Positions 4,942 through 30,023 of a stretch of 64,000 nucleotides of DNA are shown in pieces (the stretch's first letter is position 1; each line of letters opens with the position of its first letter). A program made the position numbers and the translations under genes. The notes below the pieces were generated by a model, which saw only the letters and a program-made list of their open reading frames with translations, was not told the origin of the DNA and did not search any database. Location of the stretch: positions 124,001-188,000 of the forward strand of contig CANHGW010000001.1 in the NCBI GenBank assembly GCA_947460175.1. The letters run 5' to 3'. This stretch comes from Bacteroidota bacterium (GTDB lineage: Bacteria > Bacteroidota > Bacteroidia > Chitinophagales > Chitinophagaceae).

Positions 4942-6372
4942 TTAATGATGATGACTTTGTTCTTCTATAAAATGTTCATCCGATTGCTCTTCTATAGCGT
5001 TCATTTTATCTTTATAGTTTTGTCCGCTCGTTTTCAAAATAAATTTAATCTCTGCAATTGCAATGACTGGGAAGTATTTTGCAAATAAAAAGAAGCATGT
5101 AAAGAATAACCCAAATGAACCTAGGTAGAAACCAACCTCTGTCCAGCTTGGAGTGTAATAGCTCCAACTACTTGGAAGATAATCTCTATGCAAAGCCATG
5201 ATGATTACAAAACGTTCAAACCACATCCCGATATTTACGATAATACTCATAAAGAACGTAAACCAAATATTTCGTCGTAAGTTTTTGAACCAAAATAACT
5301 GAGGCGAAACCACATTACAAGTCATCATTGCCCAATAAGCCCACCAATATGGTCCCATTACACGCAAACGAAATGCCTCTTGCTCCCATAATACACCACT
5401 GTAATAAGCGATGAATAACTCTGTCAAATAAGCAACACCTACAATTGACCCTGTTAATACAATTACTTTATTCATTGCTTCAATATGTCCAATTGTAATA
5501 TATTCTTGTAAGTTTAAAACTTTACGTGTAATAACTAAAAGGGTTTGTACCATTGCAAAACCAGAAAATACCGCACCAGCAACGAAGTAAGGAGGGAAGA
5601 TAGTTGTATGCCATCCAGGTACTATAGATGTAGCAAAGTCAAACGATACAATTGTGTGTACAGAAAGTACAAGTGGAGTACTCAAACCAGCTAATACCAA
5701 CGATAACATTTCATGACGTTGCCAATGTTTTGCACTACCAGCCCATCCAAATGATGCTAAGCCATAAAGTCTTTTTCTTAATTTAGTTTTAGCACGATCA
5801 CGAATTGTAGCAAAATCAGGTATTAAACCAGAATACCAGAATAATAATGAGACAGTAAAGTAAGTTGAAATCGCAAATACGTCCCACAACAAAGGTGAAA
5901 TAAAATTTGGCCAAAGTGGACCACGTGTATTCCCATAAGGCAATACGAAGAAGGCATCCCATACACGGCCCATGTGCCATATCGGGAACTGCCCAGCACA
6001 CATTACAGCAAAAATAGTCATCGCTTCAGCAGCTCGGTTTACACCTGTACGCCATCCCTGACGGAATAGTAACAAGATGGCTGATATCAACGTACCAGCA
6101 TGACCAATACCTACCCACCAAACGAAGTTGGTAATATCCCAACCCCATCCGATTGTTTTGTTCAGGTTCCAAACCCCTGTACCCCAGTAAACTTCCCAAC
6201 CTACACTAAATGCTCCAAACGCTAAAAGCGCAGCTGAAAGGAAAAAACCAATTTTCCATAGCTTGGTAGGTGGATTCTCAATAGGAGCACAGATATCTTC
6301 AGTTACCTGATGATAATCTTTGTTGCCATCTACTAAGGCTTCTCTAATAACCGATTCGTACTTTAAATGCAT
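4942..6372 (-). CDS. actC: Alternative complex III quinol-oxidising membrane subunit ActC
   Basis: NrfD/PsrC-like integral membrane subunit carrying the quinol-binding site of alternative complex III. 476 residues with about ten transmembrane helices. Family-typical segments include WWVGIGHAGTLISAILLL and MWFERFVIIMALHRDYLPSSW. The C-terminus ends in an acidic, histidine-capped tail (EEQSHHH), echoing the histidine-rich extensions of ActB and oxidase subunit I. The ATG at 6370-6372 is unambiguous. It lies 62 nt behind actB. Confidence 0.96.
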   Translation of the reverse strand: MHLKYESVIREALVDGNKDYHQVTEDICAPIENPPTKLWKIGFFLSAALLAFGAFSVGWEVYWGTGVWNLNKTIGWGWDITNFVWWVGIGHAGTLISAILLLFRQGWRTGVNRAAEAMTIFAVMCAGQFPIWHMGRVWDAFFVLPYGNTRGPLWPNFISPLLWDVFAISTYFTVSLLFWYSGLIPDFATIRDRAKTKLRKRLYGLASFGWAGSAKHWQRHEMLSLVLAGLSTPLVLSVHTIVSFDFATSIVPGWHTTIFPPYFVAGAVFSGFAMVQTLLVITRKVLNLQEYITIGHIEAMNKVIVLTGSIVGVAYLTELFIAYYSGVLWEQEAFRLRVMGPYWWAYWAMMTCNVVSPQLFWFKNLRRNIWFTFFMSIIVNIGMWFERFVIIMALHRDYLPSSWSYYTPSWTEVGFYLGSFGLFFTCFFLFAKYFPVIAIAEIKFILKTSGQNYKDKMNAIEEQSDEHFIEEQSHHH

Positions 6373-6434
6373 ATCTTTTTCTTTTTTTTCAATTGTCGTT
6401 AGACAGTTGTTAGATATATTAATTTCTTTTTCTA

Positions 6435-9400
6435 TTATACATGATGTTCTGCTTCAGCACTGTGTCCACTATGTTCAGGATTAGCACTTTGTAAAACATT
6501 GGTATTTCTAATTTTTGATAAATAGTTCACATTTGGCAACGTATGTATTTCTTCCAATACATGGAATACACGTTCTTTTTGTTCTTCGTATCTTAATTTG
6601 TAGATTGAACTTGCAGTGTCATTTACATTTCCAAATACAATAGCATCAGTAGGACAAGCTTGCTGACAAGCTGTTCTTGCTTCACCATCATTCATGGTTC
6701 TACCTTGTTTCTTAGCTGTAGCTTTTGCTCCTTGAAGACGTTGTACGCAGAAAGTACATTTTTCCATTACCCCACGACTACGTACTGTCACATCTGGATT
6801 CAATACCATACGCGTGATATTGTTATTGATATCATCTCGACGTCCATCTTCATATGCGTTATCATCAAAACAATCTGCTTCATTCCAGTCTCTCCAGTTG
6901 AAGCGACGTACTTTATAAGGGCAGTTGTTAGCACAATAACGAGTACCGATACAACGATTGTAAGCCATTTGGTTAATACCTTCACTACTATGATTGGTTG
7001 CATTTACAGGACACACATTTTCACATGGTGCATTGTCACAATGCTGACAAATCATGGGTTGAAACAAGGTCTGAATTGAATCTGGCTTGCTTGGATCTCC
7101 AGCAAAATAACGATCGATACGAATCCAATGCATATCATGAGCAAGCAATACTTGGTTTTTACCGACAACAGAAACATTGTTCTCTGCTTGACAAGCAATA
7201 GTACATGATCCACAACCAACGCAACTACTCAAATCAATACTCATACCCCATTTCATTCCCAATGATTCATGATTAGGATAGAGAGTACCATTTTTACGAT
7301 AAGCATCTTGCCAGTCTTGGTCTGCCTTAGTAGGTTCTATGTGTGCATTGGCCTCATGACCACCTTCACCATGTCCTCCACCTGCTTCAAAACTGTGTGT
7401 ATAATGACCCAATTCTTCTTTTCTTTCATTGAAAAGTTCCATTGGATTCTTTTTAAATTCATCGAATGTAAACTCGTGAATAATTGGACGATCATTTTGA
7501 TAGCTATGATGTGTTTGTGTGATTGCTAATGGATATGTTGCAGAAGTACCCGTTAATTCTACATCAGAAGCATAGAAATAGGCATTTCCATTTTCTCCTT
7601 TCGAAACCATAGGGTAAACGTTAATACCAGTTCCAGCTGCTGCTTTTCCTGCTCCTTTATCACGACCATAACCAACTGCCACAGCAATTACATCATCATG
7701 CATACCTGGCAATACCAATACAGGTAGTTTTATTTCTTTTCCACCTGATTTGATACTAAATACTTTTTTCTCACGTTGAACTTCGTTCAAGTCAGTATGT
7801 TCGGCACCCATTGCTTTTGCGCGATTAGGCGACATTAATACATAGTTGTCCCAAGTACATTTTGTAATTGGATCTGGCAATTCTTGTAACCATGGATTAT
7901 TACTCCATGCACCTCCACGACCAATACCTACCTTTTCGTAGATAATCATTTCGGGCTTACCATCTGCGCTACCTTTCATTGCTGCAATCTTTGCAGTTGC
8001 ATCAGCTACATTTCCTGAGAATGATGCACCTGACATTGGCATAGCTTCTGGCTCAATTAGACCACTTTGGATTGCTGCGTCAAACGCACCTTCACCTCCA
8101 AGTTTACCCATCCAATATGATTTTACAAAATCATAGTGTGAAATAGGATTACCACTCCACTTCAATAAAGACTCCGCAAAATGACGAGTTTTAAATAATG
8201 GATTGATAGTTGGTTGCATTAATGATGTATAACCAGTATGTGGCTCAGCATCACCCCAACTTTCAAGCCAATGATGAGTAGGTGCTGCAACTTTACACAC
8301 TTGTGTAGTTTCATCATTACGATCGTTGAACGAAACGGATAATTTCAACGAAGGTAATTTTCCTTTGATTACCTCACCATGGATAGTATCATAAACTGGA
8401 TTACAATCCAAGAACATTGCACCACCCACTTGGCCATTTTTCAATGCCTCAGCGAATGCATTCATGTCTGAATCATTTCCTTGTTTTGTATTATTAACTG
8501 AACCAAATGAAATTGTAGTACCTAAGGCCCCAATTGCATTGTTGATTGCATTAACTATTGTTTGTACATTAGGGTCATTGCTTCCGCATACCACTAATGC
8601 ATTGCCTTTGTTGGCATTTAAATCAGCCGCAATTTTTTTAATCGCTTCGTTTATACTAGGAGAAACTGTAGCAGCACCTCCATTTAAAGCATTTAATAAA
8701 CCCAATGCAACAGCACCGTACTGAGATGGCTTGCAAGTGTAACGCTCATCGGCACTACTTCCTGTCAAACTCATCATTCCTTCCAATTGGTAGTGCTTAC
8801 TCATCATAAGATTTTTAGCACTTATTTTACGTCCTTTACTGTATTGTTTTGCATAAATTTCTGGTGAAATCCATGTTCCTAAAAAATCCGCCCCAATACT
8901 TACAATTACCTTTGCATTGTCAAATCTATAAGCCGGCACAGCTCGCTTGCCAAATGATGATAAATTTGCATCCAATAAGCCACTGTAAGACACTGCATCA
9001 TACATAACGTGTTTCGCAGTCGGGTATTTTGAAGCAAAAGCAGCAACAGCCTGAGCAGTCGATGCACTATTTAATGTAGATGTAATGATATAAAGTGGTG
9101 CACCGCCCAAACCAGCTAATGCATCCATCACCATTTTATCAACGGCTTCCCATGTACTTTCTTTTCCTTCGATGGTTGGAAATTTAAGACGAGTTGCATC
9201 ATATAAATTTAAAACTGAACCTTGGATACGGGCTGTTGTAGCACCTCCGGTCAATTTACTATCAAAATTACCTTCCACTTTAATAGGACGACCTTCACGT
9301 GTACGAACCAATACAGGTACTGCTTCGCCGCCGTCTACATAGGTAGAAGCGTACATCAAAGGTACCCCTGGTGTTACATTTTCTGGCTTGATTGCATAAG

Positions 9401-9623
9401 GAATCGCCTTACGCACTTCCATTTCACAACTTGCAGCCATTGTAGCTGCAACAGTACTGAAACCTAAATACTTCAAGAAATCTCTTCGTGATGTAGTTGC
9501 TTCAGCAATGGATTCAACACCGGCAAATGGAAGATCTTCACGAAACTCGTTCGCTACTTGATCATTGAACTTATCTGAAGGGTTTAATTCTTCAAGTCCT
9601 TTCCAATATTGTTTTTTACTCAT
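6435..9623 (-). CDS. actB: Alternative complex III iron-sulfur subunit ActB (molybdopterin oxidoreductase-like)
   Basis: Large periplasmic subunit of alternative complex III, 1062 residues from the ATG at 9623 (a TTG eight codons upstream is open but unlikely). A Tat signal with RR at residues 46-47 (SRRDFLKYLGFS) exports it folded. The first two thirds resemble molybdopterin oxidoreductases, a domain known to have lost its molybdenum cofactor in this family. The last third has four ferredoxin-like Cys groups: CVGCGSCTIAC; CQHCDNAPCENVCP; CIGTRYCANNCP; and CTFC with CQQACP. In the third group Thr replaces one Cys, which fits the single [3Fe-4S] cluster of the family. A His/Gly-rich insert (GGGHGEGGH) and a His-rich C-terminus are present. 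Confidence 0.96.
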   Translation of the reverse strand: MSKKQYWKGLEELNPSDKFNDQVANEFREDLPFAGVESIAEATTSRRDFLKYLGFSTVAATMAASCEMEVRKAIPYAIKPENVTPGVPLMYASTYVDGGEAVPVLVRTREGRPIKVEGNFDSKLTGGATTARIQGSVLNLYDATRLKFPTIEGKESTWEAVDKMVMDALAGLGGAPLYIITSTLNSASTAQAVAAFASKYPTAKHVMYDAVSYSGLLDANLSSFGKRAVPAYRFDNAKVIVSIGADFLGTWISPEIYAKQYSKGRKISAKNLMMSKHYQLEGMMSLTGSSADERYTCKPSQYGAVALGLLNALNGGAATVSPSINEAIKKIAADLNANKGNALVVCGSNDPNVQTIVNAINNAIGALGTTISFGSVNNTKQGNDSDMNAFAEALKNGQVGGAMFLDCNPVYDTIHGEVIKGKLPSLKLSVSFNDRNDETTQVCKVAAPTHHWLESWGDAEPHTGYTSLMQPTINPLFKTRHFAESLLKWSGNPISHYDFVKSYWMGKLGGEGAFDAAIQSGLIEPEAMPMSGASFSGNVADATAKIAAMKGSADGKPEMIIYEKVGIGRGGAWSNNPWLQELPDPITKCTWDNYVLMSPNRAKAMGAEHTDLNEVQREKKVFSIKSGGKEIKLPVLVLPGMHDDVIAVAVGYGRDKGAGKAAAGTGINVYPMVSKGENGNAYFYASDVELTGTSATYPLAITQTHHSYQNDRPIIHEFTFDEFKKNPMELFNERKEELGHYTHSFEAGGGHGEGGHEANAHIEPTKADQDWQDAYRKNGTLYPNHESLGMKWGMSIDLSSCVGCGSCTIACQAENNVSVVGKNQVLLAHDMHWIRIDRYFAGDPSKPDSIQTLFQPMICQHCDNAPCENVCPVNATNHSSEGINQMAYNRCIGTRYCANNCPYKVRRFNWRDWNEADCFDDNAYEDGRRDDINNNITRMVLNPDVTVRSRGVMEKCTFCVQRLQGAKATAKKQGRTMNDGEARTACQQACPTDAIVFGNVNDTASSIYKLRYEEQKERVFHVLEEIHTLPNVNYLSKIRNTNVLQSANPEHSGHSAEAEHHV

Positions 9624-9691
9624 ATTATACTGGTTGTCAGTTGACAATATTTTTAATTCTCTTGTTAATTTAATTTCCTATTTCTAAAAAA

Positions 9692-10963
9692 TTAATAATG
9701 ACATCGTTGACATTCCAAACCACCAATTTCACTCACTTTTACATCTTGGCGTGTTCCTGCTTTGATTTCATCATGATATTTTTGGAAGATTGAATAGTAA
9801 TTGTTGTCGGCAAATTGAACCTTAGTTTCACGGTGACAGTTTACGCACCATCCCATGCTCAAATCGGCAAATTGATACACTTCATCCATTTGCTCAATGT
9901 TTCCATGGCAACGTTGACAAGCCAACTTACCAGAAACTACGTGTAATGAGTGATTGAAATATACGTGATCAGGTAAGTTGTGGATTTTAACCCACTCTAC
10001 TGGTTTTGCTTGTATTGCTCCTTTATCATCGCGGATATAATCTTTCTTAGCAGGATCCCATCCAGCGTATTCGTATAATTTTTTAATTTCAGCATTTCCA
10101 TCCACTTTTTTACCTTCAAGGGTTACCAATGGATGTGTTTCAGCACCTGTGTATTCATTAATCTGTTTGTGACAGTTCATACATACATTCGTAGAAGGAA
10201 TCATCGCATGACGACTTTTCTCAGCACCAGCATGACAATATAAACAGTTGATTTGATTGATACCAGCATGTACTTTATGCGAATAGAAAATTGGTTGCTT
10301 AGGCATATAGTTTTTCTGACGGCCAAATTCCGATGCATTGGTCAACCAAACACCAAATCCAATTAAAATCAAAATTGCAATAACGGCTACGATTACTTTG
10401 TTCTTGAAGAATGGAACATCTTTAGGAGAAGGCAAGCCTGATTTCACATTGGCAGAGCGACTCAATACTTTGTTGACTTGAGTAAGAATGTATACAGCTA
10501 AAAGTAATACCAAAGTTAAAATAGCATATAGCAAGGTATTGTCCCCTGCTTCCTTAGGAGTTTCAGCTCCTGGGACAACTTTTGGTCCAGGCACTTCATA
10601 CTCATCTACATATTTTACAATAGCATCAATATCTTCATTGGATAAAGCAGGAAATGCTGTCATGGCAGTTTTATTCCATTTGGCATAAATTTCATTGGCA
10701 TATTTATCACCGCTCCCAATTACAGAAGCAGAGTTTTTTACCCATTTATAGAGCCATTCTTTACTAGGTACTCGACCTGAAACCCCTTTAAGAGCAGGAC
10801 CTGTAGCATCTTTGATTGGATTGTGACAAGCAGCACAATTTGCCTGAAATAGGGCTTTACCATCGGGCTGAGCCACGGTAGAATAGGTGTGAAGGAGTAA
10901 GAATGCTAGAAGCAGTAAGTATCCTTTAAAGTCTTTCGCCATACGCAATGAGTAACTTAACAT
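9692..10963 (-). CDS. actA: Alternative complex III multihaem cytochrome c subunit ActA with N-terminal extra cytochrome domain
   Basis: Periplasmic multihaem cytochrome of alternative complex III, first gene of the operon. 423 residues from the ATG at 10963; an ATG at 10942 (MAKDFKG) is an alternative. After a signal peptide a class I cytochrome domain carries CAACH at residues 43-47. Two hydrophobic helices follow, then five more CxxCH sites: CLYCH, CMNCH, CQRCH, CVNCH and CQRCH, the last ending one residue before the C-terminus. That makes six haems against the five of the well-studied family members, because of the fused N-terminal domain. A TACATTTG box lies 37 nt upstream. Confidence 0.94.
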   Translation of the reverse strand: MLSYSLRMAKDFKGYLLLLAFLLLHTYSTVAQPDGKALFQANCAACHNPIKDATGPALKGVSGRVPSKEWLYKWVKNSASVIGSGDKYANEIYAKWNKTAMTAFPALSNEDIDAIVKYVDEYEVPGPKVVPGAETPKEAGDNTLLYAILTLVLLLAVYILTQVNKVLSRSANVKSGLPSPKDVPFFKNKVIVAVIAILILIGFGVWLTNASEFGRQKNYMPKQPIFYSHKVHAGINQINCLYCHAGAEKSRHAMIPSTNVCMNCHKQINEYTGAETHPLVTLEGKKVDGNAEIKKLYEYAGWDPAKKDYIRDDKGAIQAKPVEWVKIHNLPDHVYFNHSLHVVSGKLACQRCHGNIEQMDEVYQFADLSMGWCVNCHRETKVQFADNNYYSIFQKYHDEIKAGTRQDVKVSEIGGLECQRCHY

Positions 10964-19558: not shown

Positions 19559-20257
19559 TTAATTTCCTTTCATAATTTGTTGAACATCCTCTTTAAACTT
19601 TTTACCAATAGGAAATTCTTTATTTTCAATCATTAATGATGTAGATGAAATGCTTCTAACGAAATGAATATTGACAACATAGGATCGATGTATTCGAATA
19701 AATACTGAAGATGGTAATTTATCCATCATGCTTTTAGTAGTTATTTTACTCATAATAAATTTTCCATCCGACAAATATATTTTTACATAATCATCTTTAC
19801 TTTCAATATACATTATACGATCAACCGCTAAGTTTATCATTTTATATTCTGACTTGATCGTAATGTAGGTCAACTCCTTTTGGTGTGTATCTTGTTTACT
19901 TGCAAATACCCTCAATGCCTTTTTGCATGCAATTGAAAATCGTTCATAGTTAAACGGTTTTAATAAATAATCAACTGCATTTACATTAAAGCCTTCATTG
20001 GCATATTCAGAAAAAGCAGTCGTAAAAATGACCATTTTATCCAACCCATACTTTTTATAAAATTCAAACCCATTCAAATCGGGCATTTGAATATCTAAAA
20101 AAATTAAATCAAGTTGATTTGTTTCAAAAAACAAAATAGCTTCTTCTATGTCTGTAAAACATTTTATAAGATTTACATCTTCATGTTCTTTACAAAATGA
20201 TTCAATGACAGCAAGTGCCAATGGCTCATCATCTATTGCTACACATTTAAGTTTCAT
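19559..20257 (-). CDS. LytTR-family response regulator
   Basis: 232 residues. Receiver domain residues 1-120 with the phosphorylatable Asp55 in LIFLDIQMPDLNG and the conserved Lys in DYLLKPF. The C-terminal LytTR DNA-binding domain (about 130-232) has the typical YIESKDDYVKIYL and FIRIHRSYVVNI. Its ATG overlaps the kinase stop by four bases (ATGA), so the two are made together as a two-component pair. Targets are not evident. Confidence 0.95.
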   Translation of the reverse strand: MKLKCVAIDDEPLALAVIESFCKEHEDVNLIKCFTDIEEAILFFETNQLDLIFLDIQMPDLNGFEFYKKYGLDKMVIFTTAFSEYANEGFNVNAVDYLLKPFNYERFSIACKKALRVFASKQDTHQKELTYITIKSEYKMINLAVDRIMYIESKDDYVKIYLSDGKFIMSKITTKSMMDKLPSSVFIRIHRSYVVNIHFVRSISSTSLMIENKEFPIGKKFKEDVQQIMKGN

Positions 20258-21321
20258 TGTAAATTCAGCTTTAGTTCAACTACAAAATGATTGTCAATTT
20301 GTTCTAAACTCAACGAATACTTATCGGGATAATCAAAGTTAAGTCGTTTAGTTACATTTGCCACACCTATCCCCGATTCGATCCCTGCATTTGTTCCTTT
20401 ATCAAAAATCTCATTTCTAGTATTTAATACCAACGAATTTAATTGAACTTGTATTTCAATAAGTATTTCGCAAGGCTTCACTGTACTTAGTCCATGTTTA
20501 AAACAATTTTCGATAAATGGTATTAATATCATTGGTGATATAACCTGATCATTAACCTCACCAATAACATTATATGTAAGATTCACTTTAGGGTTTAATC
20601 TCAAACGTTGCAGCGAAATATAATGTTGCAAATAATCGAGTTCTTTGTCTAATCGTGTTTTTTCTTTCACAGATTCATCCAATATATATCTCATGATATA
20701 TGACAAACTATGAATAGATGGAGGTGTTTGAGGATTGTTTTGCAGACTTAATGAATATATACTATTCAATGAATTAAATAAGAAATGATGATTGATTTGC
20801 GATTTCAAAAACGCTAACTCCATTTCTGTGCGTTCCTTTTGAACAGAAATCCAGTTCTTGTAGATGGTAAGTAAAAACGGAAGTAACCCAATCAAGATAG
20901 ACATAAAGAAATGAATACCATTTTCTCCTCCAAACATTCGATTAGGTTTTCCGTGATTGTGCTTGTGCATTCCACCATGAGAATGAAGTTCGGTATGATT
21001 TAAATTAAAAGGGCGATGAGGCATTAACCACTCTACTAGCATTGGAAATGCTATAACAAACATAAGTAATATAACGACACTTACTATATACGTTGCATAC
21101 TTTTTCTGATTAAAAAATCGTGGTATAAGGACTAAATAATGGAAATAAAAAAGCAGGATGAATTTAATATTTTTAATAAAAAATATAAACAAAAATGCAA
21201 GTGGAGACTCAAATGCAGGATGATGCATTCCTTCTCTTAGCGGCGGTGCAAATAGGATCGGTATAAAACAGAATAAGATCCAAATGATTATTTGCGCTAG
21301 TATAAATCCAAATTTCCTCAA
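20254..21321 (-). CDS. LytS-type sensor histidine kinase with His-rich extracytoplasmic loop
   Basis: 355 residues. Four hydrophobic segments (about 6-28, 41-67, 77-98, 133-153), then a cytoplasmic His_kinase domain with QINHHFLFNSLNSIYSL at 176-192 (phospho-acceptor His178 or 179) and an ATPase domain (FIENCFKHGL; GIGVANVTKRL). Between helices three and four lies a loop with eight histidines in residues 102-137 (HSHGGMHKHNHG), suggestive of metal sensing. No ATG is available; the start is TTG at 21319-21321, 14 nt behind a TACATTTG box. Partner of the LytTR regulator. Confidence 0.9.
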   Translation of the reverse strand: MRKFGFILAQIIIWILFCFIPILFAPPLREGMHHPAFESPLAFLFIFFIKNIKFILLFYFHYLVLIPRFFNQKKYATYIVSVVILLMFVIAFPMLVEWLMPHRPFNLNHTELHSHGGMHKHNHGKPNRMFGGENGIHFFMSILIGLLPFLLTIYKNWISVQKERTEMELAFLKSQINHHFLFNSLNSIYSLSLQNNPQTPPSIHSLSYIMRYILDESVKEKTRLDKELDYLQHYISLQRLRLNPKVNLTYNVIGEVNDQVISPMILIPFIENCFKHGLSTVKPCEILIEIQVQLNSLVLNTRNEIFDKGTNAGIESGIGVANVTKRLNFDYPDKYSLSLEQIDNHFVVELKLNLQ

Positions 21322-23233: not shown

Positions 23234-25567
23234 TTAAAACTCCACTTTGTAATTCAATATTGGCAATATGCCTGTTTGATAATAGGTTTTAACTGTGTTG
23301 GATTCTACATTATAAAATCTATCATACACATTTTGTCTATTGATGACATTTTGAATATCGAGCGACAGGGTACTTGTAAATCGCTTTCTATTCCATTTCA
23401 TACTCACTCTAATATCGGGTCTGATATATGCAGGCAATTGATCCGAATAAGCTTTATCTTGGTAGTAGACAGTCTCGCCTGCTTGTTGTGATGCTAATTG
23501 ATCAATAGGTGAAGTTCTATAACCTCCGGCATACACTGCTTTCAAATTTAACCCCAAGGTTCTTCTGTTATTTTTCGAAACAAATTCTTTGCCAGTTACT
23601 ACATTAATAATTTCGTTTCCATTGAATCTTGTATTGAATTCTCTTCCGTCTTTACCTATATATTTTGATTGATAAAATGACGAGCTCAACATGAAATAAA
23701 AATTCTGACTTAACTGTTTTTCCAACGAAATTTCTAAGCCGTAATTTTTCCCTTTGCCTTTATTAATCAATTTTTCTCTTACATAATCACCCTCAGAATT
23801 TAATACAGAAAACGTACTAGAATCTAATGCACTTACTGGTATATCATAAAGATGTTGGTAGTAGATTTCTGTTTTCAATTTCAAATTCTTGGCTATGGCA
23901 TAACTATGCGACAAGACTAGATGATGCGCTTTTGAAAATCCAATTTGATCATTTGGCTTCAAACCATTTTCTTGATAAAAATAAATCCCTAACGCTTGAA
24001 TTTGACTATGCTTGCCATATCCAAAAGCTAAACTTTGCTTTTTATCAACTTGCCATTTTATTGAAGCACGAGGTTCTATTGATTGCGAATGATTATAAGC
24101 TAAACCTATATAATGCAAGCCTGCATTGATGGTAATTTTTTCCGAAGGCTTATATTGCATTTGAGAATATGCTTGAAATGTTTCGGTTCTTCCAGTAGAA
24201 TTGACAAGTAAGCGCAATGGGTTTGTATACACATCTCTTATGTTTTCCTTAAAATTAAAAGCCATTGAATTTACGATGATACCTGAACGGACTAGCATGT
24301 GAGAATTTATCTTTTTGTTCAAACTCGATGTCAATGTCAATTTATCAATTTGATAAGACACTTTATAAACATCCAGCAATGAATAATCATCTTGCATATA
24401 ATTTCTATTGTATCCAATATTAGTTTTTGAATAACCAACAGCTGTTTTCAACAAGCTAGTTGAACCTATATTGATGGCATGCGTAATGCCCCACATACCA
24501 GTATTGGAAACAAAATCATCACTATGTCGTTCATTTCTTGTTGTCCATTTTGTACTATCTTTTTTTGCATTAAAATATTGATTGCTCAAGCCCCCAAAAC
24601 TAAATAGTGTAAAGTCACCGAAACGTTTGGTAGGCAAATAAATATTATACGACAAATCTTGAAAATTAGTTACAGACGGCGTCAGATCAATTCCAATTTT
24701 TGAGAACAAACTTAAGGTTGAGTAACGATAATTGATCAAATACGAACCTTTATATTTTTTACTAAATGGTCCTTCTGCAGCAGCGTTGATTCCTAATATG
24801 CCTGCTTGTAATGTATATTCTTTTTTTTCATTATTACCTTTGCGCAAATGCAAATCAAATACACCACTTAATGCATTTCCATATTCAGATGCAAATGCAC
24901 CAGTCACAAAATCTGAGTTGGCCAACAATTGTGTACTCAATATAGAAATGCCACCACCACTACTGCCTGCAGCCGCAAAATGATTTGGATTAGGAATATC
25001 AATTCCTTCCATACGCCATAGCATTCCCTTAGGCGAATTTCCTCTTATCACTATTTGATTATTACCATCGTCTCCCGCTATCACACCTGGAAAGTTGGTA
25101 GCCATACGTGCAGGATCATTCACCGAAGCGGCATATCGTTGTGTTTCTTCAACTGTAAAAGCTCGAGCACTCACCATACTCATTTCATTGAGCGGTTTAT
25201 TGTTCTTACTCTGAGCTTTTATTACTACTTCTTTGTGTTCTACTATTTTTTCTTCAAGTTTAATCGTGAGCACTATTTCTTTTCCAGCGTTGACAGACAA
25301 TTGCGAAACTATATTATCCTTAAAACCCATAGCAGTTATCATCACATTATGTATTCCCACAGGCACTTGCTCAATTTTAAAATGCCCTTCGGCATCACTG
25401 ACAGCACCAAATTGAGTGCCTTCAATTCTTATAGTAGCACCCGTGATAGGTTTATCCAAGGCATTTTCTATTACAGATCCTCTGATGGTTTGTGTAAAGT
25501 GTTGAGCCTTTGTATTCAAACTTAACAATTGAGCAATCCATAATAAAAGAATGATTTTCGAGTTCAT
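23234..25567 (-). CDS. TonB-dependent outer membrane receptor
   Basis: 777 residues from the ATG at 25567. Signal peptide to about residue 21, then a carboxypeptidase-regulatory-like beta domain (GSVIENALDKPITGATIRIEG) at about 28-110. A plug domain follows (RMATNFPGVIAGDDGNNQIVIRGNS), then a beta barrel of about 550 residues ending in an aromatic C-terminal strand (LNYKVEF). There is no STN signalling domain, so it should not control the nearby sigma factor itself. Ligand unknown; no SusD partner is adjacent. It is divergent from a small exported protein, with inverted repeats in between. Confidence 0.92.
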   Translation of the reverse strand: MNSKIILLLWIAQLLSLNTKAQHFTQTIRGSVIENALDKPITGATIRIEGTQFGAVSDAEGHFKIEQVPVGIHNVMITAMGFKDNIVSQLSVNAGKEIVLTIKLEEKIVEHKEVVIKAQSKNNKPLNEMSMVSARAFTVEETQRYAASVNDPARMATNFPGVIAGDDGNNQIVIRGNSPKGMLWRMEGIDIPNPNHFAAAGSSGGGISILSTQLLANSDFVTGAFASEYGNALSGVFDLHLRKGNNEKKEYTLQAGILGINAAAEGPFSKKYKGSYLINYRYSTLSLFSKIGIDLTPSVTNFQDLSYNIYLPTKRFGDFTLFSFGGLSNQYFNAKKDSTKWTTRNERHSDDFVSNTGMWGITHAINIGSTSLLKTAVGYSKTNIGYNRNYMQDDYSLLDVYKVSYQIDKLTLTSSLNKKINSHMLVRSGIIVNSMAFNFKENIRDVYTNPLRLLVNSTGRTETFQAYSQMQYKPSEKITINAGLHYIGLAYNHSQSIEPRASIKWQVDKKQSLAFGYGKHSQIQALGIYFYQENGLKPNDQIGFSKAHHLVLSHSYAIAKNLKLKTEIYYQHLYDIPVSALDSSTFSVLNSEGDYVREKLINKGKGKNYGLEISLEKQLSQNFYFMLSSSFYQSKYIGKDGREFNTRFNGNEIINVVTGKEFVSKNNRRTLGLNLKAVYAGGYRTSPIDQLASQQAGETVYYQDKAYSDQLPAYIRPDIRVSMKWNRKRFTSTLSLDIQNVINRQNVYDRFYNVESNTVKTYYQTGILPILNYKVEF

Positions 25568-25604
25568 AATATATATTTCAAACAAGACAACTTGCTTTTA
25601 AAAC

Positions 25605-25648
25605 ACCCTTATATCGAAATCTTTTTTTGTAGTATAAGGGTAATTTCG
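25605..25648. repeat. Interleaved inverted repeats in a divergent promoter region
   Basis: ACCCTTATA (25605-25613) pairs with TATAAGGGT (25633-25641), and CGAAAT (25615-25620) with ATTTCG (25643-25648). The arms are interleaved, not nested. They sit midway between the TonB receptor and the 25681 gene. Operator function is a guess. Confidence 0.45.
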
Positions 25649-25680
25649 TAGATTGTTGTCTTATTTATATACAATTGAAA

Positions 25681-26352
25681 ATGTTACACTTTTGTTTTAA
25701 TATAAATGAAAAAATTATGTTCACTGCCTTCTCAAAAAATATACATCACATAATTAGAGGAACTCAAATTTTACTCATGTTCTGTTTCTCGTTTTTAACT
25801 TTTATAGCAAATGGCGAAGCGCTTGTTTATACTGTGATGAAAGGAGATGACAATGTAGGGGAGTTTAGAATTGATCGAAATAAAATCAATGATATAACCG
25901 AATACACATCCCAATCTGTGGTGAAAGTAAATATGCTAGTGACTATAAAAGTGACAGACAAAATGAAAGTAAGTTACAGTGGCAATAGAATGGAAAGAGC
26001 CGAATTGCACAGAACTTTAAATGGGCTAGTAAGAGTCAATAACTTAGCTATTTGGAATGGCAGTTCTTATCATATGACAAATAAAGACAAAGATGTAACT
26101 ACATTGAGACATTTAATTCATTACAGCACCGCGTCGCTCTATTTTCTGGAACCAAGCAATATCCCTTCCGTCTTTTCCGAAAATTTTCAAAAAATGATTG
26201 CTATAAAATCAGTTGGAAATAAAAAGTATACATTAGAATTGCCAAACGGAAATAAAACAAGTTACACTTATGCCAATGGTATTTGCACATTAGTAGAGGC
26301 CGAAACCGATTGGGCTGATATTCGATTTGTATTGAGCAAGCGGATTCCATAG
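25681..26352 (+). CDS. Exported DUF6134-like protein
   Basis: 223 residues from the ATG at 25681; the ATG at 25717 would give a neater signal peptide (ILLMFCFSFLTFIANG). The mature part is all-beta in appearance: ALVYTVMKGDDNVGEFRIDR, then VNMLVTIKVTDKMKVSYSGNRME and NGSSYHMTNKDKDVTTLRH. It ends in a hydrophobic-alternating segment WADIRFVLSKRIP. Layout and motifs recall the DUF6134 family of Bacteroidota, whose function is unknown. It diverges from the TonB receptor and could share its control. Confidence 0.6.
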   Translation: MLHFCFNINEKIMFTAFSKNIHHIIRGTQILLMFCFSFLTFIANGEALVYTVMKGDDNVGEFRIDRNKINDITEYTSQSVVKVNMLVTIKVTDKMKVSYSGNRMERAELHRTLNGLVRVNNLAIWNGSSYHMTNKDKDVTTLRHLIHYSTASLYFLEPSNIPSVFSENFQKMIAIKSVGNKKYTLELPNGNKTSYTYANGICTLVEAETDWADIRFVLSKRIP

Positions 26353-26364
26353 TTGTATTGGCTA

Positions 26365-27612
26365 TTAATTTTTTCTAGGCACACGAAGTATGAATCCCAC
26401 ACGATGTTTAGCTCGTTTTCCTTTTGAAATATTTATGAATCCTACACTAGTTCCATCTGTACCATCCGTTACATTTACAAAACCAATTTGAAGGCCTTTG
26501 ATATTTTTTGCCTTATTATACAAGCTAGCTATTTGTATTCCTTTTACTTCTTTTTTGGCCACATTAGCCAATCCAGCTATTTGAGTTCCTCGAATCGTAT
26601 CATTCACTTCATTATAAAGTGATGATATTTGAACTCCATCCATCTTTCCTCCTACTAGATTAACAGCACCTGCTATTTGACAACTTTTTACATCTCGTTT
26701 GTCGATATTAAATATACCGCCTACTTCAACTATACTTGTGCCGCCACTATAGCCGCCAATCAAGTTGATAGAGATCCCATTCACTACTTGCGGGTTCATT
26801 TTTCCATGTGTTCCAATACCTGGTATAATTGAAAACTGATAACCACGCGTTGTATAAAATTTCTTCAAATTCAAACTTTGAATTTTTTGTTTTGATGTCA
26901 AAAACAAATTCGTAAACCATTTTTTTTCTATTACAAGTAGATAATCTTCCTTTCTTATAGTACCTGTTTCAGTTTCTACATTTATATATTGAGCATCTTC
27001 GATCGCCACAAATTCTGGTTCTTTTTTGGCAAGTGCTATTGTCAATTTTTGATTGAAATTAGTTTTAATTTCAACTGTTGTATCCTTATAATCTTGCTTG
27101 CTAATAGAGACCGATGCTGTTTTGAATTTGTTTTTCAACTTGAGCGAAAAATTACCTTTTTCATCTGTCATAGACGAAATCAAATTTTGTTGTTCATAGA
27201 TCGTTGCATCCTGAATTTTATCGCCTGTTTCTTCATCTATAATTACACCTGTAATATAAAAATGATCGCTTGTAACAGGAGAATTAGATATCACGCTCGA
27301 CGTAGTAATAGCCTTTCTACGAATAATAATATAATTGCCACTTTCTTTAAAATCGTAACCTGACTTAAAGAGCGTACGCAAAATATCGTGCACCGATTTA
27401 CTCTTAGCCGATATGCTTACGATAGAATCTTTCTTCACTACTTTGCTATTGTACGAAAATGTAAAATCACCTTCATTACTTATGACCGTCAATGCATCTT
27501 GCAATGGCAATGATTTTACATTGACAGATATAATTTTATTCAAATGATTTTGCGCAAATACAATTTGAGTGAACAATAAAATAGGAATAATTACAATGCT
27601 AATTTTTTTCAT
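26365..27612 (-). CDS. STN-domain protein with 16-residue GxQI repeats, no TonB barrel
   Basis: 415 residues. Signal peptide (FTQIVFAQ), then an STN (secretin/TonB short N-terminal) domain at about 25-105 with SLPLQDALTVISNEGDFTFSYN. A carboxypeptidase-regulatory-like domain follows (ITGVIIDEETGDKIQDATIYE). Instead of a plug and barrel there is a linker and, from about residue 265, repeats of about 16 residues: GVQISSLYNEVNDTIR, GTQIAGLANVAKKEVK, GIQIASLYNKAKNIK, GLQIGFVNV. It is the third gene behind the ECF sigma and FecR anti-sigma, 8 nt after fecR, so it occupies the place of a signalling receptor. Confidence 0.75.
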   Translation of the reverse strand: MKKISIVIIPILLFTQIVFAQNHLNKIISVNVKSLPLQDALTVISNEGDFTFSYNSKVVKKDSIVSISAKSKSVHDILRTLFKSGYDFKESGNYIIIRRKAITTSSVISNSPVTSDHFYITGVIIDEETGDKIQDATIYEQQNLISSMTDEKGNFSLKLKNKFKTASVSISKQDYKDTTVEIKTNFNQKLTIALAKKEPEFVAIEDAQYINVETETGTIRKEDYLLVIEKKWFTNLFLTSKQKIQSLNLKKFYTTRGYQFSIIPGIGTHGKMNPQVVNGISINLIGGYSGGTSIVEVGGIFNIDKRDVKSCQIAGAVNLVGGKMDGVQISSLYNEVNDTIRGTQIAGLANVAKKEVKGIQIASLYNKAKNIKGLQIGFVNVTDGTDGTSVGFINISKGKRAKHRVGFILRVPRKN

Positions 27613-27619
27613 GATTTTC

Positions 27620-28612
27620 TTATTTCAATATATACATTTTACCTTTCTTCTCCACTTGAAACTCAAACGTTTCACTCAATACGTCTAATACACTTTCCAG
27701 CGATTCGTTGTTGAATTGTGTAGTCAATGTCAACTTTTTCAACTCATTATTTTCTATCACAATAGTGTCTTCATAGGCTTCATTCAATACTTCTACTACT
27801 TTCCACAATGGCGTATTATCACATTCAAACTGCTTACTTCTATAGTATTTATACAATTTATTTTTGCTTTTAATTACAACAATAGTAGAGTCATCATTAT
27901 TGATTCTTGCTCGTTCATTCGGATGAAGCAATATTACTTTATTAAATTTTTTCAATTGAACAGTACCTGTTTCAACAATCACTTCTGTGTAATCATTGTA
28001 TGATTTTACATTGAACGAAGTTCCTAATACTTTTATCTCTACTTGATTTTGAGTTTCAATAATAAAAGGTTTTTCTTTATTAGGTGTGATAGAAAAAAAC
28101 GCTTCACCTTTCAAACTCACTCTACGTTCTTGACCTTCAAAAACTGTTGGTGCTTTCAGTTCGGTATGTTTATTCAATGTTACAATACTTAAATCCGACA
28201 AGGTATCTATCAATGTCATTTTATCAGAAAAGATAACCTGTTGCTTTATTGTATCTTCTTCAGGATGAACCGCTACTTCATTCCCTTTATTATTATTCTG
28301 ATTGAAAAATAAATATAAACCTATCATCAACAAAACGCTTGCTGCAGCTGCAAATGTCATCATTCTAAAAACCGACCGTTTGGGTTGTATCATTTTTGAT
28401 TTCAACCGCATCCATGCCTCTTCTTCATTGATTGGAATTGCGATGTCAAGTGCTTTGCTTTCGTCCCAAATAGTTTTTAATTGATTAAAATAGTGTTGAT
28501 TCTCTTCGCTAGCGGCAAGCCAATTTTCAACCTCGATTGTTTCTTGCATGGAGGTTTCCTCTAGCAAATATTTCACCAGCAAGTCATCTTCTATATGTAA
28601 CTTTTTACTCAA
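27620..28612 (-). CDS. FecR-family anti-sigma factor
   Basis: 330 residues. The N-terminal cytoplasmic sigma-binding region contains EVENWLAASEENQHYFNQLKTIW, followed by one transmembrane helix near 84-103. The periplasmic FecR domain (RRVSLKGEAFFSITPNKEKPFIIET) is followed by the C-terminal DUF4974-like segment LTLTTQFNNESLESVLDVLSETF in separate blocks. The only possible start is TTG at 28610-28612, overlapping the sigma stop codon as TTGA, so translation is coupled. It should hold or activate the ECF sigma in response to an envelope signal. Confidence 0.93.
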   Translation of the reverse strand: MSKKLHIEDDLLVKYLLEETSMQETIEVENWLAASEENQHYFNQLKTIWDESKALDIAIPINEEEAWMRLKSKMIQPKRSVFRMMTFAAAASVLLMIGLYLFFNQNNNKGNEVAVHPEEDTIKQQVIFSDKMTLIDTLSDLSIVTLNKHTELKAPTVFEGQERRVSLKGEAFFSITPNKEKPFIIETQNQVEIKVLGTSFNVKSYNDYTEVIVETGTVQLKKFNKVILLHPNERARINNDDSTIVVIKSKNKLYKYYRSKQFECDNTPLWKVVEVLNEAYEDTIVIENNELKKLTLTTQFNNESLESVLDVLSETFEFQVEKKGKMYILK

Positions 28613-29199
28613 AGAATATTATTTTTTAGGTGAATAAAAAAAAGTATCAACACCACGATAAAATCAACCAATTTCATACGAAGTAGTTTCAATGCTTTGC
28701 CCATATGCCCTTCTACAGTCTTTTCAGAAATGTTGAGTCGATCTGCAATTTCTCTGTATTTCAATTCTTCAAATCTACTCAATTGAAAAACTGTTCTACA
28801 TTGTTCTGGCAATTCATTCAAGGCTTCACGAAGTTTGCTCTCCAGATTTTTATACATCGTGGCATGTGCTGGGGTTTCGCTTTTAGTAGTTTTCATCGCA
28901 TGTGTTGCATAGGTTTCGTATTGTTGTTTTACTTTTTCATGTTTTATTACATTCAGACTAGCGTTGTGTACCGACCTATACAGATAGGCTTTCAACGAAG
29001 TTTGAATATCTATTTTTTCTTGCTTTTCCCACAGTTTCAAAAAAATAGTTTGCACTACTTCTTCTGCTTTCATTTCATCTTTCAACATGGTAAAGGCATA
29101 GACATACAAAGGTTTGAAGTAGTTTTTATACACCACTTCATATGTCTCTATATTACCATTGAGCAATAATTCTATGTCATTCGTATCCGTTACGACCAC
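28609..29199 (-). CDS. ECF RNA polymerase sigma factor
   Basis: 196 residues. Region 2 near residues 25-90 (AFTMLKDEMKAEEVVQTIFLKLWE; AYLYRSVHN) and region 4 near 125-175 (LPEQCRTVFQLSRFEELKYREIADRLNISEKTVEGH) place it in the Bacteroidota FecI-like ECF group. The extreme C-terminus is a hydrophobic helix (FIVVLILFFIHL). The start is GTG at 29199, because a stop codon lies four codons upstream and no ATG is in frame. It heads the sigma / FecR / STN operon. Confidence 0.94.
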   Translation of the reverse strand: MVVTDTNDIELLLNGNIETYEVVYKNYFKPLYVYAFTMLKDEMKAEEVVQTIFLKLWEKQEKIDIQTSLKAYLYRSVHNASLNVIKHEKVKQQYETYATHAMKTTKSETPAHATMYKNLESKLREALNELPEQCRTVFQLSRFEELKYREIADRLNISEKTVEGHMGKALKLLRMKLVDFIVVLILFFIHLKNNIL

Positions 29200-29230: not shown

Positions 29231-29950
29231 TTACAATTTTATCAACTTTCCCGAACCTGAAATATAAGAACTTACTGATGGATTCCCTTTATAATATACA
29301 TCTCCACTGCCAGAAATAGTTGCATTCAAAGTTTCCAACGCCCATACTTTCGTAGTGCCTGAACCACTTGTAGTCGTAGTTACAGATTGAGATTCCACTT
29401 GTTGCAAATCTGCTTTTCCACTGCCACTTATTTTGGTTGATACATTCTTACACTGACCTTGATATATAACAATTTTTCCACTGCCACTGATAGTTGCATC
29501 CAAGCTTGATATGCTAATATGATCTACACTTATTTCACCACTTCCACTTACGTTAAATTCCATGGAGCTTGATTCAACATAATTCGTCAGTTTTACTAAT
29601 CCTGATCCACTCACTGTTGCGCCATCAAATTTGGGGCTATGAATCATTACCGTGATTGGATCATGTTTAATAATATTGATCATGTTTTTAAATCCAATAC
29701 ATAATTCGCTTCCACGTTTTTCTACCTTCATTGCATCCAATACATTTTGTTGGGCTTGTATTTCTACATAATAATTGCTGTCCATTTTGTAATACACATT
29801 GGCCTCGTTAGACAAATTAATACTTGAAAAATCTTCTATTGAATAGGTTTTACTGACTATATCTCCTTGACCTACGAGCCTTTTTCCGCAGGAAGACATC
29901 ATTAAAATGGAGAAAAAACCGAACATACTTGCTACAAATACTTGTTTCAT
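29231..29950 (-). CDS. GIN-domain (DUF2807) lipoprotein
   Basis: 239 residues from the ATG at 29950; the longer ORF upstream overlaps the UbiD gene and lacks a signal. Lipobox MMSSC with Cys near residue 20. The mature part is a right-handed beta-helix-like GIN domain with the recurrent SGSG turn (VSGSGEI, ISGSGKI, TSGSGTT, ISGSGDV, ISGSGKL), about one per 18-20 residues. Family members are putative surface adhesin heads; no ligand is known. It lies 73 nt behind the UbiD gene and may be co-transcribed. Confidence 0.88.
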   Translation of the reverse strand: MKQVFVASMFGFFSILMMSSCGKRLVGQGDIVSKTYSIEDFSSINLSNEANVYYKMDSNYYVEIQAQQNVLDAMKVEKRGSELCIGFKNMINIIKHDPITVMIHSPKFDGATVSGSGLVKLTNYVESSSMEFNVSGSGEISVDHISISSLDATISGSGKIVIYQGQCKNVSTKISGSGKADLQQVESQSVTTTTSGSGTTKVWALETLNATISGSGDVYYKGNPSVSSYISGSGKLIKL

Positions 29951-30023
29951 ACTATTTATATTGTTTGTGTTTATAGTAATGAGACAACCTACATTTACTT
30001 TACCCCTACTTCTGGTAAAAAAA

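Follow-up and report, generated by a model that had tools for sequence, protein, structure and literature searches.

A gene cluster of a Chitinophagaceae bacterium probably encodes a cell-surface signaling (CSS) circuit in which a dedicated protein, composed of an STN domain, a CarboxypepD_reg-like domain and a solenoid, carries the signaling STN domain instead of a TonB-dependent transducer. Cell-surface signaling is usually described as the task of TonB-dependent transducers. The operon, its domains, the pairing of one FecR with one STN protein, the conservation in multiple Bacteroidia families and the shared promoter motif are all properties of the sequences. Such a conserved multi-family system, with the signaling STN domain placed on another envelope protein, would separate sensing from TonB transport.

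The window, that is, the whole stretch of 64,000 nt that was analyzed, comes from a Bacteroidota bacterium (Chitinophagaceae; GCA_947460175.1, CANHGW010000001.1, positions 124,001-188,000). Its relevant features are the following:

23234..25567, minus strand: TonB-dependent receptor with CarboxypepD_reg and Plug, without STN; conserved cluster member
25586..25611, minus strand: predicted promoter variant TAAGGGTG-N12-GTTGTC before the TonB receptor (motif match)
25635..25660, plus strand: predicted promoter variant TAAGGGTA-N12-GTTGTC before DUF6134 (motif match)
25675..26352, plus strand: DUF6134 gene, predicted regulon member (PF19630, E 1e-21)
26365..27612, minus strand: STN-CarboxypepD-solenoid protein, 415 aa, with signal peptide (Pfam, NCBIfam)
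26425..26856, minus strand: predicted solenoid of 16-residue LA_2272 repeats, about residues 253-396 (NCBIfam, AlphaFold2 model)
27019..27267, minus strand: CarboxypepD_reg-like domain, residues 116-198 (Pfam and structural alignment)
27301..27540, minus strand: STN domain, residues 25-104 (Pfam and structural alignment)
27620..28612, minus strand: FecR-type anti-sigma factor with a TM segment and FecR and STN-like FecR_C domains
28609..29199, minus strand: ECF sigma factor, Bacteroidota type TIGR02985, regions 2 and 4 (Pfam)
29231..29950, minus strand: putative lipoprotein of the DUF2807 (head GIN domain) type, encoded first in the operon (PF10988, E 4e-37)
29983..30008, minus strand: predicted promoter upstream of the DUF2807-sigma-fecR-STN operon, TAGGGGTA-N12-GTTGTC (matches perfectly; 0.04 such matches expected in the window)

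The minus-strand order is DUF2807, sigma, fecR and STN gene, followed by DUF6134 on the plus strand and the TonB receptor on the minus strand. An earlier note on this DNA had described the sigma, FecR and STN genes as a compact operon, and the three open reading frames are indeed found at these positions and tightly packed, with fecR overlapping the sigma gene by 4 bp and a gap of 7 bp between fecR and the STN gene. The operon starts one gene earlier than had been proposed, at the DUF2807 gene, whose ATG at 29950 and lipobox-like SSC were read directly from the sequence. The TonB receptor lacks STN, as the note had observed, and the domain is absent from all 24 scanned members of the receptor family; the receptor is, however, a conserved member of the cluster and no bystander. 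By the sequence comparisons given below, the cluster is wider than noted earlier and includes both the DUF2807 lipoprotein and the STN-less TonB receptor. Near the cluster, a histidine kinase is paired with a response regulator of the LytTR type (window 19559-21321).

Pfam matches STN at residues 50-100 of the 415-aa protein (E 6e-10, over the cut-off) and CarbopepD_reg_2 at residues 120-197 (E 3e-10), and the same scan detects neither a Plug nor a TonB barrel, in agreement with the earlier description of an STN protein that has a regulatory-like domain and no TonB receptor parts. The modeled STN part superimposes on PupR/PupB (complex 6ovk_B; Z 9.4 and rmsd 2.4 over 79 aa) and on FoxA (6i97_B; Z 9.3), and the CarboxypepD_reg-like domain on the SusC NTE (9hfj; Z 12.1, rmsd 1.8, 80 aa). 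The C-terminal repeats, counted earlier as about six GxQIxxLxN units, include three copies of the strict unit GxQhxxhxN at an exact spacing of 16 residues, whereas 2000 shuffles averaged 0.09 copies and never exceeded 2, and amount to 6-7 repeats when degenerate units are included. The repeat is already named in NCBIfam, where the window protein passes the LA_2272_repeat model (28.8 versus a 25-bit cut-off) and fails the cut-off of the VC2662 family, an equivalog model (23.4 versus 140 bits). Neither family model carries STN. In relatives there are mostly 5-9 strict units, with a period of 16 in nearly all, and LA_2272 repeats were matched in 38 of 38 homologues.

AlphaFold2, run on the window protein with 38 sequences (mean pLDDT 82, repeats mostly 86-96), yielded alternating 7- and 4-residue strands in the repeat region, the arrangement of a β-solenoid; this reading is tempered by the shallow alignments on which the fold models rest and by the readiness with which repeat proteins are modeled as solenoids. 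Structure prediction had been proposed as a check on the repeats, and the model predicts a β-solenoid and not a transmembrane barrel. For the repeat region, a TonB-like or ordinary transmembrane barrel was rejected on the basis of the modeled 7- and 4-residue strands. The left-handed helix of GlmU/LpxD was considered as the solenoid fold and dropped (Z 12.8, with an rmsd near 11), and phage tailspike β-helices are a better fit (6f7k; Z 11.2, rmsd 2.9, 186 aa); for these reasons the class is stated simply as β-solenoid.

The genome (3.12 Mb, 98% complete) contains one FecR match and one STN match, which are mutually adjacent, together with 23 Plug matches, and STN was detected on none of the 23 Plug proteins. 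Thus, no detected TonB receptor can be the STN partner of FecR and, as judged by these domain matches, the 415-aa protein is its only STN candidate in the genome. Six of 14 genomes from the genus encode the sigma orthologue, and exactly these six also encode the STN-repeat protein and DUF2807. The probability of this 6/6 versus 0/8 distribution would be 1/3003 by chance if the genomes were independent; however, they share ancestry. FecR occurs in the six cassette carriers and in one more genome, G010, where it adjoins a classical fused STN-CarboxypepD-Plug receptor and not a separate STN protein (L095:3-1244). An orthologue of the TonB receptor (at least 55% identity) is present in five of the six carriers; in the sixth, a short contig carries a motif site followed immediately by a receptor fragment. 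The cassette of the carrier G004 (L094:6812-9683) exhibits frameshifts and ambiguous bases, with the receptor orthologue ~ 150 kb away, and may reflect decay or assembly error.

A scan of bacterial genomes returned 61 homologues of the STN-solenoid protein, nearly all labeled Chitinophagaceae or unclassified Bacteroidota, plus Flammeovirga; a scan of viral contigs found no relatives. The search for STN-repeat proteins beside fecR that the earlier note had suggested was productive: sigma and FecR lie directly upstream of the STN protein in 44 of 44 full-flank loci, and a phylum sample of 395 genomes and their neighborhoods gave 15 STN-solenoid loci from at least seven families, 14 of them with FecR, where both locus and genome counts include related genomes. 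The exception, L136, is an STN-solenoid locus with no adjoining FecR or sigma gene. The fusion of homologues to a full TonB receptor, named earlier as evidence that would overturn the idea, was looked for, and Plug was found in 0 of 38 scanned homologues. A truncated TonB receptor as the origin of the window protein is ruled out by the same count. DUF2807 is found within the cluster in 32 of the 44 full-flank relatives, in first position in the window's genus and in last position in most others, which indicates that the cluster has been rearranged yet held together.

The promoter motif TAGGGGTA-N12-GTTGTC was found de novo when spaced word pairs were counted blindly in front of the sigma and receptor genes; the pair occurs in 37/56 sigma and 25/33 receptor upstream regions versus at most 6 in shuffles. 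With a weight matrix trained on the sigma promoters and a fixed score cut-off of 12, sites were counted before 26 of 33 receptor genes, 6 of 6 STN-less solenoid genes and 47 of 55 sigma genes, the last count alone being partly circular because 34 of those sites had served to train the matrix. The fecR and STN genes serve as a built-in negative control because they are internal to the operon, and sites precede 1 of 59 and 0 of 60 of them, respectively. Shuffled loci contained one site in 432 kb. The same motif is present before cassettes in other families. In the window, the main site scores 30.7 and the two variants 12.7 and 10.7; the DUF6134 gene of another locus (L033) is also preceded by a motif site. 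The relaxed pattern TARGGGTR-N12-GTTGTC, which was written after the window variants had been seen, occurs just three times genome-wide, each time without mismatch and inside the cluster. Since a reversed-pattern control also yields three genome matches, at up to one mismatch, weight is put on the exactness and position of the sites. Within the genus, five cassette carriers have exact sites, compared with 0 of the 8 other genomes. From these sites, a single regulon is predicted that takes in both the TonB receptor and DUF2807. One FecR, one STN and three predicted promoters in a single cluster offer an unusually clean setting for following an outer-membrane event to an ECF sigma factor, and with the motif as a ready reporter, the circuit is open to direct test.

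Most relatives are longer than the window protein. The 619-aa homologue from Terrimonas ferruginea has the same solenoid followed, in the model, by a barrel at residues 468-619 that superimposes on OprF, NspA and OmpA with Z of 12-14 and rmsd near 3 (OprF 4rlc: Z 13.8, rmsd 2.6, 121 aa; NspA 1p4t: Z 13.3, rmsd 2.6, 131 aa) at less than 15% identity. Nearly all long homologues whose sequence extends to the stop codon terminate in F, and a terminal aromatic residue is typical of barrels. Computationally, the long homologues possess the eight antiparallel strands and the C-terminal aromatic residue of an OmpA-like barrel; the C-terminal 150 residues that fit these barrels in the long homologue are absent from the window protein, which has neither. 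The models predict that an OmpA-like eight-stranded outer-membrane barrel follows the repeats in other genera. About 130 C-terminal residues are missing in all members of the window's genus, and the five intact short proteins form one clade with 100/100 support in a tree from which the lost part was excluded, suggesting most simply that the barrel was lost once, in this genus only. The STN-solenoid receptor of this genus is accordingly predicted to be a periplasmic protein. Of the different signal route to sigma that the earlier note had proposed, the pairing of the sole STN protein with the sole FecR stands; the notion of the repeats alone as the sensor describes at best a derived state, given the predicted barrel after the repeats in the wider family.

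The cluster resembles the Fec, Pup and Fox systems (FecI-FecR-FecA, PupI-PupR-PupB and FoxI-FoxR-FoxA) in that one operon encodes an ECF sigma factor, a periplasmic STN domain and a FecR-type anti-sigma factor whose C-terminal domain is STN-like. In contrast to those systems, the STN domain is detached from the TonB receptor, the homologues carry neither Plug nor TonB barrel, and the neighboring receptor has no STN; a transducer of the FecA/FoxA type, with STN fused to Plug and a 22-stranded barrel, is not encoded in the cluster. A partial precedent is the PUMA3 system of Pseudomonas aeruginosa (VreA-VreI-VreR), in which a mostly soluble STN protein without a TonB barrel is found beside an ECF sigma and an anti-sigma factor (PMC2729926), and hence the present circuit is not categorically new. 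VreA, however, is a 23-kDa protein with a TolA/TonB-like domain after STN. No such domain is present in the window protein, where a CarboxypepD_reg-like domain follows STN and the C-terminus is the LA_2272 repeat, modeled as a solenoid, with the OmpA-like barrel added in relatives. Literature searches, which covered open-access papers, yielded no description of this STN/FecR/CarboxypepD system, of the solenoid-barrel receptor or of the motif.

In the Fox and Pup systems, the signaling domain binds the anti-sigma factor before the signal arrives and shields it from proteolysis (PMC11637429, PMC9249621). From this analogy we infer the STN-FecR contact and its direction, the proteolysis of FecR and the signal. 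In the resting state, STN would bind the STN-like C-terminal domain of FecR in the periplasm, with FecR intact and sigma held. A change sensed by the envelope-facing part, which in most relatives would be the solenoid with its OmpA-like barrel and in the window's genus the solenoid alone or together with the neighboring TonB receptor, would alter the STN-FecR contact. FecR would then be proteolysed, and the freed sigma factor would direct transcription from TAGGGGTA-N12-GTTGTC promoters of its own operon (DUF2807-sigma-fecR-STN), the TonB receptor and DUF6134. The outcome would be a small local regulon under positive autoregulation.

The role of the TonB receptor may be read differently. It is conceivable, though rather unlikely, that sensing is actually done by the STN-less receptor, with the STN-solenoid protein serving only as its periplasmic adaptor, so that two chains rebuild a classical transducer. 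The receptor lies downstream of the STN gene in 29 of the 44 full-flank loci, shares the promoter motif in most relatives and tracks the cluster within the genus, and this arrangement would make the barrel loss in the window's genus understandable. However, sigma, FecR and STN are kept with no receptor nearby in 15 of the 44, most long homologues have an outer-membrane barrel of their own by prediction, and the receptor, with this promoter in front of it, is an output whichever reading holds.

STN-less solenoid-barrel genes beside the cassette (L058:6645-7886, L052:6853-8070, L055:6878-8125, L063:11952-12998, L082:12207-13445 and L092:12114-13235) look like outputs of the circuit because the motif precedes all six. 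Solenoid-barrel proteins without STN are also common elsewhere and, in the fetched loci, mostly occur without this type of sigma or FecR alongside. These observations would fit an STN-solenoid protein that is itself a regulated structural or surface output, with FecR sensing by another route, but this appears very improbable, since the protein is the sole STN carrier in a genome with one FecR and aligns, in its STN part, to CSS signaling domains. Least probable of all is that barrel loss left a non-functional receptor in a decaying locus, as the short proteins of the genus and the frameshifted G004 copy might suggest, since the loss is one old event, the solenoids of four other species are still 52-71% identical to that of the window, and the window retains the operon intact behind a perfect promoter.

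Beyond the preferred reading of a dedicated STN-solenoid protein that signals to FecR, a broader proposal is offered tentatively, with doubt slightly outweighing belief. The cluster may belong to a widespread Bacteroidia class of TonB-independent CSS receptors, in which an outer-membrane family of solenoid plus OmpA-like barrel, standing alone elsewhere, gained an STN-CarboxypepD head and with it access to the FecR/ECF-sigma pathway, and in L093 the same module would sit on an inner-membrane anchor beside a sigma gene. Such receptors would sense a cue that is not imported through TonB, e.g. the state of the outer membrane or a surface ligand. Stand-alone solenoid-barrel genes with the LA_2272 repeat are common in other classes of the phylum (L131, L134, L135, L138-L140, L142, L144 and L145). 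The L093 locus, a natural variant from another family of the order that lends support to the inferred mechanism, comprises DUF2807 (9210-10019), an ECF sigma gene (8620-9153) and then a 749-aa protein (6361-8607) that starts in the cytoplasm and continues through a TM segment and a long linker into the same kind of solenoid-barrel, with neither FecR nor STN; here the envelope module seems to be joined straight to the inner membrane.
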